The notes: generated by a model not told the origin, from the sequence alone. A DNA stretch of 47,380 bases from Microcaldota archaeon (GCA_021797575.1 JAJZZN010000024.1:1-47380), one strand, 5' to 3'. Shown: positions 30,672 through 36,052, numbered from the stretch's first letter. A program made the numbers and translations.

Positions 30672-31028
30672 CTAATCGGCCATTGTCTTGCTGCCCTTGC
30701 CTGGGCGCTTCAGCTTTGAAAGCCTGTACAGTGCCTTCTCATACAGGTAGAAGGCAATAGCACCGGAAATCAGCGTAGACGATAACAATATTATGGGGTC
30801 CAGGTATGGCGCTGCGTTGACCGGATTGTGTAAATCTATCTCATATAGCACTTTACTTGCAGCAGGGAAACCTATGGATATGTCTGCTGCGGTGAGATCT
30901 GCAGTCAGCATTAGGCGGTTTGGCTTGCTTGACAGTATATCATGATATATCTCCAAAACCGTTGAAGTCAGCTGTTTCCAAGCATTGGTATTGTTGTTTT
31001 GAGGCTTTTGCTTGCCCTTGGTTTCCAT
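30672..31028 (-). CDS. Small membrane protein at the end of the mercury cluster
   Basis: 118 aa from the ATG at 31028. A TATA-like AGTATATATATGG about 15-25 bp upstream suggests a nearly leaderless transcript of its own. The first ~75 residues are polar (METKGKQKPQNNNTNAWKQL, then a helical stretch). One hydrophobic segment, DPIILLSSTLISGAIAFYLYE, follows, with a basic C-terminal tail (RLSKLKRPGKGSKTM). No family recognised and no Cys, so a direct mercury role is not supported. The stretch upstream to 31109 is open but lacks a good start. Confidence 0.65.
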   Translation of the reverse strand: METKGKQKPQNNNTNAWKQLTSTVLEIYHDILSSKPNRLMLTADLTAADISIGFPAASKVLYEIDLHNPVNAAPYLDPIILLSSTLISGAIAFYLYEKALYRLSKLKRPGKGSKTMAD

Positions 31029-31105
31029 GTTAATACTGCTGCATTTCCATATATATACTATAATGGTATGAACAACTGCCTCCAGGCTGCAGCGCCTTGC
31101 TGCCT

Positions 31106-32521
31106 TCATATAGTGCAGCAGCTCATCTTGCTGACATCGCTGTAAAATGATATTGAAGCCAGTTTAAGCGCTTCGTTGAGCGTCGGGAACGGGTGTATGG
31201 TGTCAATTATGTCATCTATTGTAAGGCCGAACTTCACAGCTAGTGTCGCCTCGGATATCATGTCTGAGGCATTTCTTGCAAGTATGCTTACGCCTAATAT
31301 TCTGTGCGTCTTGTAGTCTATCACTATCTTTACGAGCCCCCTTTCGTCGCCTATTATGCTAGCTTTTGGCACGCTTGACATTTGGAGCACACCGCAGCTG
31401 CACTTTATGCCTGACCCGTTGGCCTCTTCGTCAGTCAATCCGACCATAGCTGCTTCAGGCATAGTGAATACAACGTTAGGCACTTCGTGGAGGTTTATTG
31501 TAAGCTTGGTATTTGCGAAGGCATTTTGCGTGGCTAGATTGCCTTCCTTTGCAGCAAGGGTTTCGAGCATGGGATTCCCCGTCACATCTCCAGCAGCATA
31601 TGTGCCTACCTTGCTTGTCATCATATACTTGTCTATTTTTATGAAGCCCTGTTTATCGGTTTTTATGCCTAGGCTCTGCAGGTTGAGGTGCTCAGTATTG
31701 GGTGCCCTTCCGGTGGCAAACAATATTTGCTCTGAATATGCGCGTGACACTTTGCCATTTACTGAAAATTCTACATATTTTTTGCCGTCTTCCTCTCCTA
31801 TCTTTTTAGTCTCTGCCCCGGTGATAATGCTTATGCCAGATGACTTCATGTAATATGCAAGCGATGATGAGACTTGAGGCTCCCATCCCGGCAGTATGGT
31901 GTTGCTGCGCTGCAGTACTGTAACCTTCGAGCCCAATGAAGAGAACATTTGAGCGAATTCGAGCCCCATGGCCCTGCCGCCCACTATCGTAATGGATTTG
32001 GGTAGCTCTGTAAGTGACAGTGCTTCTTCGTTGGTCAGGTACGCAGTTTTATTGACGCCCTCTATTTTTGGTATACTTGCCTTTGCGCCTGTTGCTATAA
32101 GCGTTTTTTCTGCGGCAATCTCCTTTTTGCCTGCAGATATGGTGCCATTTTCATTAAATGACGCAAAGCCTTCTACGAAGCTGACATTCTCGAGTCCCTT
32201 GAGCACTTCTTCGTATTTGCTAGTTCGCATGCCAGATATTAGGCGGTCCTTATCGCACATCAGCTCTTTGAAGTTTATTTCTGGTTTGCTTATTTCCACG
32301 CCGCCGAATTTACGTGCACGGCCATCAATCGCGTATTCGCCTGCCGATATGAGCCTTTTGCTCGGGACGCAGCCGACATTCACGCATGTGCCTCCGATCA
32401 GAGCTCCAGGGGTTGCATTCTTGCCTATCATGACGGTTTCTATTCCTAATTCGTTGGCCTTTATCGCGGCAGCAAATGCTGCTGCGCCCTGACCCAGTAT
32501 TGCGTATTTGAATTCTTCCAT
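31106..32521 (-). CDS. merA: Mercuric reductase
   Basis: FAD/NAD(P)H enzyme reducing Hg(II) to Hg(0), 471 aa. The start is MerA-like (AILGQGAAAFAAAIKANELG), followed by the redox-active GGTCVNVGCVPSKRLI, NAD-binding ITIVGGRAMGLEFAQMFSSLG, LFATGRAPNTE, YAAGDVTGNPMLETLA and HPFPTLNEALKLA. It ends SFYSDVSKMSCCTI: the vicinal Cys pair near the C-terminus delivers Hg(II) to the active site and separates MerA from lipoamide dehydrogenases. The N-terminal metal-binding domain (NmerA) is absent, as in many archaeal MerA. It starts 13 bp after the ArsR-type gene. Confidence 0.93.
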   Translation of the reverse strand: MEEFKYAILGQGAAAFAAAIKANELGIETVMIGKNATPGALIGGTCVNVGCVPSKRLISAGEYAIDGRARKFGGVEISKPEINFKELMCDKDRLISGMRTSKYEEVLKGLENVSFVEGFASFNENGTISAGKKEIAAEKTLIATGAKASIPKIEGVNKTAYLTNEEALSLTELPKSITIVGGRAMGLEFAQMFSSLGSKVTVLQRSNTILPGWEPQVSSSLAYYMKSSGISIITGAETKKIGEEDGKKYVEFSVNGKVSRAYSEQILFATGRAPNTEHLNLQSLGIKTDKQGFIKIDKYMMTSKVGTYAAGDVTGNPMLETLAAKEGNLATQNAFANTKLTINLHEVPNVVFTMPEAAMVGLTDEEANGSGIKCSCGVLQMSSVPKASIIGDERGLVKIVIDYKTHRILGVSILARNASDMISEATLAVKFGLTIDDIIDTIHPFPTLNEALKLASISFYSDVSKMSCCTI

Positions 32522-32534
32522 TCTCCCACTTATA

Positions 32535-32864
32535 TTATCTTTTCCTACTATCTTTCGCTATTATGCCGCATGCCTGCAGGTGTGTTTCATATCTGTCCAT
32601 ATGCGAAGCTATATTTTTCACTATCCGGGCTGCAGCGGGTTCTATGGTGTATATGTGCTCTTTGCCTATCTGCCTGACGTTGACAAAGCCGCAATTTGTC
32701 AGGCATTTCATATGATGTGATACATTGCTTTGCTCTAGAGCGGTGAGTTTGGCTATGGAACCCACATTGAGGGGCTTTTTGAGTAATAGCAATAGTATAT
32801 TGAATCTATTTATATCACCAAACGCATCAAAGAAAAGCTGCACGGTTTCTTTCTCCATATTCAT
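32535..32864 (-). CDS. ArsR-family regulator, probable MerR-type mercury sensor
   Basis: 109-aa winged helix: FGDINRFNILLLLLKKPLNVGSIAKLTALEQSNVSHHMKCLTNCGFVNVRQIGKEHIYTIEP. ArsR proteins sense metals through Cys thiols. Here Cys residues sit in and after the recognition helix (KCLTNCGF) and near the C-terminus (LQACGII), a plausible Hg(II) site. The archaeal mercury regulator known from Sulfolobus is also an ArsR-type winged helix. The start codon overlaps the end of the upstream thioredoxin-like gene by 4 bp, and merA follows. It probably represses the cluster through the palindrome at 33929-33956. Confidence 0.88.
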   Translation of the reverse strand: MNMEKETVQLFFDAFGDINRFNILLLLLKKPLNVGSIAKLTALEQSNVSHHMKCLTNCGFVNVRQIGKEHIYTIEPAAARIVKNIASHMDRYETHLQACGIIAKDSRKR

Positions 32865-33406
32865 GCCTCATTTATTGCAGCTTCGAGCTGGTTGAGCGTT
32901 GCTGACGGTTCGCCGTTTACATATAGTATCTTGCCTGAAGGTGATATCAAGTAGTAGATGTCCAGGTATCCCTTCGGGTCGTACGTTTTGGTAAGGTTAT
33001 ACCCGGAATAGCCTTGGGTTATATATCTGGAGCTTTGGCCTGCGTACGTATTCACAAATTGATTTATTGTTGGGCCTGCATAGCCAAAATCCCTGTATGC
33101 TTCCACTTCCAGCACACTGACATTCCTTGAGTTGAAAAAGGCAATGTTTTTGCCCAACGTCTGTGTGCCTTCTGCACACGTCGAGCACCACGTAGTTACT
33201 ATGTATAGAAGAACTTCTTTGCCTGAATATGCATTTAGGTTTGTATAGGTGCCGTTGAGCAGATAGAACCCTTTGTTAGGTGCACTGCTCCCTGTGGGTA
33301 TAGAAGACGCATTTGATGGCCTGCCGAAAATCTGTATGAGAATGAATATTGCAGCTAGAATCACCAATGTTATCCAGATATAATGCAATTTTTTCATAAT
33401 TACCAC
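32861..33406 (-). CDS. Membrane-anchored thioredoxin-like (TlpA-type) protein
   Basis: 181 aa. A signal anchor (HYIWITLVILAAIFILIQIF, residues ~7-26) places a thioredoxin-like domain outside the membrane. The domain has LLYIVTTWCSTCAEGTQTLGKN with a CSTC active site (~residues 74-77) and a later YLISPSGKILYVNGEP, as in TlpA/ResA. Between an MerT-like gene and the mercury regulator, it could bind Hg(II) outside the cell in place of MerP, or keep extracytoplasmic thiols reduced. That role is inference. It overlaps the next gene by 4 bp. Confidence 0.85.
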   Translation of the reverse strand: MVIMKKLHYIWITLVILAAIFILIQIFGRPSNASSIPTGSSAPNKGFYLLNGTYTNLNAYSGKEVLLYIVTTWCSTCAEGTQTLGKNIAFFNSRNVSVLEVEAYRDFGYAGPTINQFVNTYAGQSSRYITQGYSGYNLTKTYDPKGYLDIYYLISPSGKILYVNGEPSATLNQLEAAINEA

Positions 33407-33424
33407 AATTTAACATCAAGCAAA

Positions 33425-33934
33425 TCATTTGACATTGCAGGAACACAGCTTTACTGAAGATTTGTATATTGCTACAAGCAAAAGCGCACCGGATAGCAGC
33501 AACAGCAGAGGCTCGTATGTGGCTATAGGGCCCTGTATTATGCCCGTGGTGCCTATTACAGTAGAGATGGATGCACCTGACAATGCAAGCAGTGATGGCA
33601 CCAATGCCGTGCAACACATGCTGCTCGGCAACACTGCTGCCAAGAACGATCCTATGGACAGTTTCGCAGAGGCATTAACGCCACGTTTAATCCCGTATAT
33701 GTTCATCACAATAACGACTGAAAACAGGGCTGATAACAAGAATGATACCATAATTACTGCAACGCTTAAACCAAAGAGGGCAGGACTAGGTAGGAGCGCT
33801 ATGCTTGAATATGAGAGCAGATAAGCGTACAGCATAAACATTAGCGCAGTTATTACTGCAAAAGTTGCGGCGTTGCGCTTTTCGCTGAATACAATTCTCA
33901 ATGAATTAACTATGTCGCCTAAACGCGCATACAT
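33425..33934 (-). CDS. MerT-like membrane protein, putative Hg(II) importer
   Basis: 169 aa with four hydrophobic segments. The third begins LAAVLPSSMCCTALVPSLLALSGAS and is followed by a YEPLLLLLSGALLLVAIYKS helix. This resembles MerT, which has SSCC in its first helix followed by Leu-rich sequence, Gly-x-Ser-Gly and a Glu-Pro-containing helix. Vicinal Cys in a helix passes Hg(II) across the membrane. A further Cys-x-Cys ends the protein (LCSCNVK). The two N-terminal helices have no MerT counterpart. The ATG at 33934 lies inside the palindrome, so the mRNA is probably leaderless. First gene of the cluster. Confidence 0.72.
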   Translation of the reverse strand: MYARLGDIVNSLRIVFSEKRNAATFAVITALMFMLYAYLLSYSSIALLPSPALFGLSVAVIMVSFLLSALFSVVIVMNIYGIKRGVNASAKLSIGSFLAAVLPSSMCCTALVPSLLALSGASISTVIGTTGIIQGPIATYEPLLLLLSGALLLVAIYKSSVKLCSCNVK

Positions 33935-33956
33935 ATGAATCTAGATTCATATGTAT
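33929..33956. promoter_or_regulatory. 28-bp perfect palindrome over the mercury-cluster promoter and start codon
   Basis: The sequence is self-complementary over 28 bp, centred between 33942 and 33943, with half-site ATACATATGAATCT. It covers the ATG of the MerT-like gene (33934-33932), and its outer edge overlaps a TATA-like AATATACAT on the minus strand. A dimeric repressor bound here would block transcription initiation. The ArsR-type regulator in the same operon is the obvious candidate. Confidence 0.8.
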
Positions 33957-34986: not shown

Positions 34987-35332
34987 CGCTGCATGTGGTG
35001 CAGCAATAGCCTGTATTATGACTTCTTGGGGTCATTCCCCGTTATGGGCGCGCCTAGCTTGCTTACTTTGAATCTGGCCCTTCTTAAAGCGGTATTGCCA
35101 CCGTCAGTCATTAATTCGCCATTTTATAATGTATGATAATGATCATCGCACGGCAGAATGAAGTTTGCCGGATATAAATTCCTTGTTGTCTGTGAGTATT
35201 TAGTATTGTAGCGTATATGGTAAATTGATTTATGCTGTTTTGTGCGCGCACACAAACAAAAAACCGAACAAAAACCGAACTCTCTCTAATTATTTTATAT
35301 AATTTATACGTAATTATTTGTTTGTGAGCATA
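34987..35332. other. 346-bp intergenic region with hairpin, palindrome and tandem repeat
   Basis: After the transporter stop is a 6-bp hairpin GCTGCA-TGTGG-TGCAGC (34988-35004) without a T run. A TATA-like TTTTATAATG near 35123 precedes a 17-codon frame at 35159 (MKFAGYKFLVV...). Just upstream of the next gene are the perfect 12-bp palindrome TGTGCGCGCACA (35241-35252), two tandem copies of AAAAACCGAAC (35259-35269, 35270-35280) and the TATA box TTTTATATAA (35293-35302). I see no conventional gene here. Confidence 0.55.
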
Positions 35333-36052
35333 ATGACAAAGAATCTTCAGACAAAGAGCAGGATATTAAACTTGTTGAAGAAACGCAAGATGACAATTAC
35401 AGAGATTAGCCAAGATTTAGGCATCTCCAAATCCACAGCGAGCCAGCACATGTCTGAGCTAGCCAGAATGAATCTTGTCGAACAGGAATTCAACCCACAT
35501 TTCAAGAAGGTTAAATATTATAAGGCAACGGGTTCTTCTAGTAGTGCTTCAAATCAGGAGTATGGCAAGATTAGCAGGGCAATTGTCGGTATTTCGATCG
35601 TTGCTGCGCTTGGCGCCGCATTGATATTTTTGGCTCTAGTCGGGTCTGCGGCACACTACCACGTCCGTACAAACACCACTACCGAAAATGCAGGCATCCG
35701 GGGTAATGCCCTTTCGTGCCCGGTTATGCTCATATATAACAACCCCAATACCAGCGTTATTTATCACATTGTTAATGGCATAGCTGATGGTGATCCATGC
35801 CAGATGGCCTACATAAATGGGAACACATCAAGTTTCACGCAGGCATTAGGAGGACTAAAATATATATCGGACAATGGCACCGTGTATGTGCCTTCGGCAA
35901 GGTTCAATTACACTCTGTCCAGTACGCAGGTTACAGATCTCGAGGCCTCTGTTGACAATGGATATTGCTATGACTTGAAGGCGTTGCAGTTCTTTGGAAT
36001 AAAGTTTTCAATACCATCAGGCACTTCATGCAAGGCCAGCATTTATAGCTGA
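35333..36052 (+). CDS. Membrane-anchored winged-helix regulator with extracytoplasmic domain
   Basis: 239 aa from the ATG at 35333, with GTGA just upstream. Residues ~1-65 are an ArsR-like winged helix: SRILNLLKKRKMTITEISQDLGISKSTASQHMSELARMNLV. A Ser-rich linker and one membrane helix (IVGISIVAALGAALIFLALVG, ~85-105) follow. An outer domain of ~130 residues has four Cys (LSCPV, DPCQM, GYCYD, TSCKA) that could form two disulfides, plus several N-x-S/T sites. A DNA-binding head, one helix and an outer domain suggest a one-component transmembrane sensor. The signal and target are unknown; upstream repeats may be its own operator. Confidence 0.82.
   Translation: MTKNLQTKSRILNLLKKRKMTITEISQDLGISKSTASQHMSELARMNLVEQEFNPHFKKVKYYKATGSSSSASNQEYGKISRAIVGISIVAALGAALIFLALVGSAAHYHVRTNTTTENAGIRGNALSCPVMLIYNNPNTSVIYHIVNGIADGDPCQMAYINGNTSSFTQALGGLKYISDNGTVYVPSARFNYTLSSTQVTDLEASVDNGYCYDLKALQFFGIKFSIPSGTSCKASIYS

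Follow-up and report, generated by a model that had tools for sequence, protein, structure and literature searches.

A mercury-resistance operon of a Candidatus Micrarchaeota-type archaeon with a new form of the presumed transport half

Which proteins could bring Hg(II) to the mercuric reductase (MerA) of an archaeon? This question is raised by four adjacent genes in a 47,380-nucleotide stretch of DNA from a Microcaldota archaeon (GCA_021797575.1, JAJZZN010000024.1:1-47380), a contig of a 659-kb assembly that is 77% complete; the whole stretch is called the window here. The genes encode a four-helix membrane protein (T), an exported protein with a thioredoxin fold (X), an ArsR/SmtB-family metalloregulator (R), and MerA (Table 1). 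T-X-R-merA is a mercury-resistance operon in a Candidatus (Ca.) Micrarchaeota-type archaeon, new in the form of its presumed transport half. By computation, we found that T and X travel with MerA throughout the phylum and turn up again in some bacteria and some haloarchaea.

A 2012 survey of mer genes found MerP and MerT to be absent from Archaea except for a MerP in Ferroplasma (PMC3466566), and merA and merP are both present in Thermoplasmatales (PMC3750248). In a 2021 survey, MerA is counted in 22 Micrarchaeota genomes, and a term search of that text returned no description of the regulators or transporters of Micrarchaeota MerA (PMC8261052). The Sulfolobus operon of an ArsR-type regulator, a TRASH protein, and MerA, like other archaeal merA clusters, places MerA under an ArsR-type regulator, as in the window (PMC3466566). 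Unlike the operon studied here, those clusters have been described as lacking transporters in the membrane. In the window cluster, where no model search for TRASH was made, we saw no TRASH protein. In a literature search with subscription journals largely outside its reach, we found no paper tying merA to a redoxin/TlpA protein or describing a new mercury transporter family.

Linkage of T and X to MerA

The MerA of the window is genuine and no look-alike because it scores 539 bits (E 1e-161) against the NCBIfam equivalog TIGR02053, the cut-off of which is 454. Judged by family membership, it would be a true mercuric reductase. Its cysteines lie in CVNVGC at residues 46-51 (C46/C51) and in a C-terminal CC at 468-469. 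The C-terminal SCC is missing from its lipoamide-dehydrogenase-like paralogues, and its best matches in the Protein Data Bank (PDB) are mercuric reductases.

An earlier reading of the window from its sequence alone (the sequence-only reading) had suggested a survey of the gene neighborhoods of merA. We searched 301 genomes of Ca. Micrarchaeota for T relatives and for MerA separately, joined the two tables, and read 70 regions. T and MerA shared a contig at 53 loci. T-MerA clustering is far beyond chance: wherever the flank of MerA could be read, at 53 of 53 loci, T was present at a distance of ≤2.4 kb. The survey thus turned out in favor of the sequence-only reading. In each of five further MerA loci without T, the contig stops on the flank expected to hold it. 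The genes were arranged as T-X-R-A in 32 complete clusters, T-X-A in 7, R-A-T-X in 5, and R-T-X-A in 1, with T/X on the strand opposite MerA in 8. Through nearly all of these rearrangements, and in nearly all clusters, X adjoins T. The genes beyond the cluster differ between loci, and MerA is constant. A contig search with the T alignment also found T, X, R, and MerA together in 24 of 24 loci, although these came from overlapping genomes and are not independent of the first count.

To look beyond the phylum, we searched 72,556 plasmids with T alone and obtained only four weak matches (E 0.1-1): one each in Acidithiobacillus and Acidiphilium and two in Halorussus. The Acidithiobacillus region reads merA-redoxin-T, and the Acidiphilium match is a protein identical to the Acidithiobacillus T, again under a redoxin. 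One Halorussus region holds merA, ArsR, a redoxin-DUF3105 protein, and T; the T of the second is near-identical to the first. When the Acidithiobacillus T was used as the query, it returned a further merA-redoxin-T locus in Acidiphilium and a protein that ends gammaproteobacterial mer transposons also carrying merT, merP, and merC. On the plasmids, T and X stand beside merA under the labels "hypothetical protein" and redoxin. Micrarchaeal T aligned with acidophile and haloarchaeal T over 162 columns (E 3e-19), and therefore the four-helix form is one family. Two points of the sequence-only reading are thereby refined: it had called T a fusion, but the homology to bacterial and haloarchaeal T is full length, so that four helices are the family's own shape, and it had pointed to an archaeal variant, but T-X is also found on plasmids of acidophilic bacteria.

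The X partner in Halorussus (L132:4329-5780) is a long protein with a zinc-finger-like N terminus and a twin-arginine-like segment as well as redoxin and DUF3105 domains. The gammaproteobacterial loci (L159:7456-8414, L158, L160, and L161) are Tn3-type mer transposons with a second, unnamed unit downstream of merA, made up of a MerR-family gene, a 131-aa membrane protein, and the T relative.

Relationships of T and X to known proteins

T has a vicinal CC at residues 107-108 in helix 3 and a CSC at 164-166 (C164/C166) at its C terminus, whereas X has an N-terminal anchor followed by WCSTC (C74, C77). The sequence-only reading had picked out all three: the helix with CC, the CxC at the end of T, and the thioredoxin with CSTC. 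Across 60 near-full-length T sequences, the CC, Y36, and G120 are invariant. The C-terminal cysteine at 164 is kept in 58; every sequence has one to three cysteines among its last 15 residues, and two are found there in 52.

Searches with the window T alone gave nothing informative in Pfam, NCBIfam, or the PDB. We used HHalign to compare a T profile with profiles built from plasmid sequences, nine of bacterial MerT and nine of MerF. T scored 44.1 against MerT (probability 91) and 41.9 against MerF (probability 91), and MerT scored 44.4 against MerF; thus, T resembles each of them about as well as they resemble each other. The T-MerT match spanned 69-72 columns with scores of 39-44. Among the controls, column shuffles scored no higher than 16.7, the 12 unrelated membrane families no higher than 17.0, and the reversed profile of MerT no higher than 19.7. 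T proteins generally had no Pfam family match, but one T relative matched Pfam MerT (E 6e-5, MerT positions 12-77). The gathering cut-off of that family (PF02411) was missed by the best T relative (23.5 versus 32.9 bits), and the window T had no match to it. The MerF family had no match among 35 T members and none for the window T.

MerT, the bacterial inner-membrane Hg(II) transporter, has in common with T a vicinal CC in one helix, an EP-type motif in a second, the cysteines that follow, and membership in mer operons. Unlike the three-helix MerT, T stops just past the cysteine pair, without a third MerT helix, and begins with two additional N-terminal helices. MerF shares with T an LCCxxP-type CC helix, and the C-terminal vicinal CC that follows the second MerF helix is present in most T proteins too. 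MerF has about 80 residues and two helices, unlike T with its 169 residues and four helices, and the likeness holds at the profile level only. Read from these profiles, T is a MerT/MerF core (the CC helix, a second helix, and terminal cysteines) set behind two extra helices, which backs the MerT-like CC helix described in the sequence-only reading. By the positive-inside rule, both termini and the loop between helices 2 and 3 would be cytoplasmic, with the CC helix oriented as in MerT.

X matches Redoxin (31.6 bits, cut-off 26.6, E 1.7e-7), and its best Foldseek match is ResA (E 4.7e-10). Its CxxC is kept in all 66 X sequences, including the bacterial and haloarchaeal partners. With the thiol-disulfide oxidoreductases ResA and TlpA it shares the fold, the WCxxC, and the N-terminal anchor. 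Unlike them, X is found with T, and the position of the ResA cis-proline (Asp149 in X) holds Asp in 57 of the 66 sequences and Glu in the other 9. According to an atlas of the thioredoxin fold, the cis-proline is more conserved than CxxC and may block metal binding there (PMC2757866, citing Su et al. 2007). Because this proline is replaced by Asp or Glu, a role as metal carrier seems to fit X better than one as thiol oxidoreductase.

The sequence-only reading had placed an exported thioredoxin where MerP would be expected, and this agrees with what we found: an HMA domain (MerP type, PF00403) had no match in the 77%-complete assembly, and a thioredoxin-fold protein adjoins T in nearly every cluster. 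Both MerP and X are exported CxxC proteins beside a transporter, which is a functional analogy only. MerP has the HMA fold, whereas X has the TlpA/ResA thioredoxin fold and is membrane anchored. Four loci (L103, L105, L113, and L117) have T flanked by two thioredoxin-like X genes, and the second X copy is fragmented in L103 and L108.

A candidate route for Hg(II) and its rivals

The best reading of this operon, and in our judgment a likely one, is a distinct Hg(II) uptake module that runs from X to T to MerA and is regulated by R. We infer Hg(II) to be the cargo and the direction to be inward. Outside the cell, membrane-tethered X would capture Hg(II) at its CxxC, the job of MerP elsewhere. 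Within the membrane, Hg(II) would be handed from X to the vicinal C107-C108 in helix 3 of T, which would then move it on to the cytoplasmic C-terminal pair C164/C166. Inside, the C-terminal CC of MerA would accept Hg(II) for reduction to Hg(0). R may act as a repressor of the operon, bound to a palindrome that overlaps the start codon of the first gene and released once its three cysteines take up Hg(II). We lean, with less assurance, toward T and X being a distinct, unnamed class of Hg(II) uptake system of Micrarchaeota and of haloarchaeal and acidophilic bacterial plasmids, in which the place of MerP is taken by a thioredoxin-fold protein that became a metal carrier by losing the cis-proline, and that of MerT by a four-helix relative of MerT and MerF. 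If so, a thioredoxin fold would be filling the role of an HMA domain that binds metal. If T and X import Hg(II), mercury uptake by archaea can be put to a direct test, and a function can be assigned to many genes beside merA that are labeled "hypothetical protein."

Several observations weigh against this reading. The main ones are genomes with T and X but no MerA: G258 and G259 hold R-T-X, and G191 (a one-contig genome) and G213 hold T and X. In these four genomes, T-X must either act without MerA or be a relic. The gammaproteobacterial T relative has no adjoining redoxin, and its partner is a different membrane protein. Taken by itself, the small bacterial and haloarchaeal T set has a poor score with MerT (12.8) and a moderate one with MerF (29.0). 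Because of that MerT score, the link to MerT rests on the larger archaeal T profile. An AlphaFold2 model of T (helices 19-41, 58-83, and 138-165; pLDDT 65) is weak around the CC (pLDDT near 40) and found no structure match in the PDB, and for these reasons the fold was not used as evidence on T. Finally, X, as a thioredoxin-like protein with a CxxC, could serve as a redox partner instead of carrying metal.

That last point is central to the strongest alternative, a thiol-redox relay of the CcdA-ResA, VKOR-thioredoxin, or MauE-MauD kind, in which T carries electrons and X mends or reduces exported proteins damaged by Hg or keeps the cysteines of T reduced. Small cysteine-bearing membrane proteins often partner exported thioredoxins, and X has the TlpA/ResA fold and WCxxC of such a partner. 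However, T has a vicinal CC within a MerT/MerF-like core, its 35 members gave no VKOR, DsbD, or MauE match at E values up to 1, X is missing the cis-proline typical of thiol oxidoreductases, and MerA is linked at every readable locus; we regard the relay as unlikely. A slightly less probable account is that T and X handle another soft metal, or export, with MerA clustering as one part of a wider metal-resistance island. The four MerA-less genomes would fit it, two of them having R and its operator, as would the match of the R cysteines to those of CmtR, a Cd/Pb sensor. Against it, MerA stays constant while the outer neighbors vary, and the T relatives from the plasmid search sit, where read out, in merA loci. 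Mere co-inheritance of T and X with merA, with little to do with mercury, is very improbable: related genomes do pass on gene order jointly, but here there are five gene orders, repeated co-location on plasmids of Pseudomonadota and Halobacteria, and strictly conserved cysteines.

Regulator, presumed operator, and surroundings

R scored 67.1 bits against the ArsR/SmtB model NF033788 (cut-off 55). It aligned without gaps to CmtR (2jsc), the Cd/Pb ArsR sensor of Mycobacterium, over 12-76 at an offset of 3, which places C54 at CmtR position 57 and C58 at 61; by the same offset, C99 falls at 102. We take CmtR to bind metal with cysteines at these three positions. C54, C58, and C99 are each kept in 52-53 of the 57 rows of the R family, and these rows include some unrelated ArsR neighbors. 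R sits in archaeal mer operons and is far below the CmtR equivalog cut-off (42 versus 150 bits), and so its predicted metal site resembles that of CmtR without family membership.

The 28-bp palindrome at the start of T (Table 1) is presumed from its sequence and position to be the R operator. Its core, ATATGA-N8-TCATAT (33933-33952), has one exact copy in the 659-kb assembly. When 51 T starts were examined, the core was present with ≤1 mismatch at all 29 that came from clusters containing R and having T as their first gene, mostly about 20 nt upstream of the nominal T start. In R-first clusters, it lies at the start of R instead and is often doubled, and a palindrome search upstream of T found none where another gene heads the cluster. 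Within 80 nt of the starts of T or R, matches to the core occur at about 135 times the density seen in the rest of the regions read. The T-X-A clusters L098, L100-L102, L107, L114, and L116 are without R. Three of these (L100, L101, and L102) have a different palindrome, AACTATAAAGTTTATAGTT, upstream of T, and L098 and L107 have related repeats, which suggests another regulator.

Table 1. Features of the mer operon, numbered from the first nucleotide of the window
Feature	Position	Strand	Description
T	33425..33934	minus	169 aa; four-helix membrane protein; first gene of the operon
X	32861..33406	minus	181 aa; membrane-anchored, exported, TlpA/ResA-like; ATG probably at 33397
R	32535..32864	minus	109 aa; ArsR/SmtB-family metalloregulator
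MerA	31106..32521	minus	471 aa; mercury(II) reductase; without N-terminal HMA domain
Palindrome ATACATATGAATCTAGATTCATATGTAT	33929..33956	none	28 bp, perfect; overlaps T start codon; presumed R operator
TATA-box-like element TTTAATAA	33964..33971	minus	30-37 nt upstream of T start; sequence reading only

The order called by the sequence-only reading (MerT-like, TlpA-like, ArsR-type, MerA) was present in full, with 18 nt between T and X, a 4-nt overlap of X and R, and 13 nt between R and merA. That reading had left open whether an adjoining small membrane protein (open reading frame [ORF] 30672-31109) belongs. We dropped it from the operon: it is broken by stops and frame shifts in the relative G247, only its end aligns in the relative G248, and it is absent from all other clusters.

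Additional small or secreted-looking proteins were seen in a few clusters. Between T and R of a divergent mer cluster, L119:5588-5710 (plus strand) is a 40-residue, cysteine-rich, metallothionein-like ORF, MAKRTGKGQLKKEECCTSCCACCDCGECKGGKRKCGCSCC, and an ORF with a short cysteine-bearing tail occupies the same place in L120 (3581-3721). In three genomes, a secreted-looking CxxC protein, GSIDCVFCGENRW, lies between R and MerA (L103:2166-3281, L113:4640-5719, and L121:6393-7463); presumably it resembles DUF929. On the other strand of the window, near the mer operon, positions 35318-36052 (plus strand) encode a protein in which an ArsR-fold DNA-binding domain precedes a membrane segment and then a domain that looks secreted.

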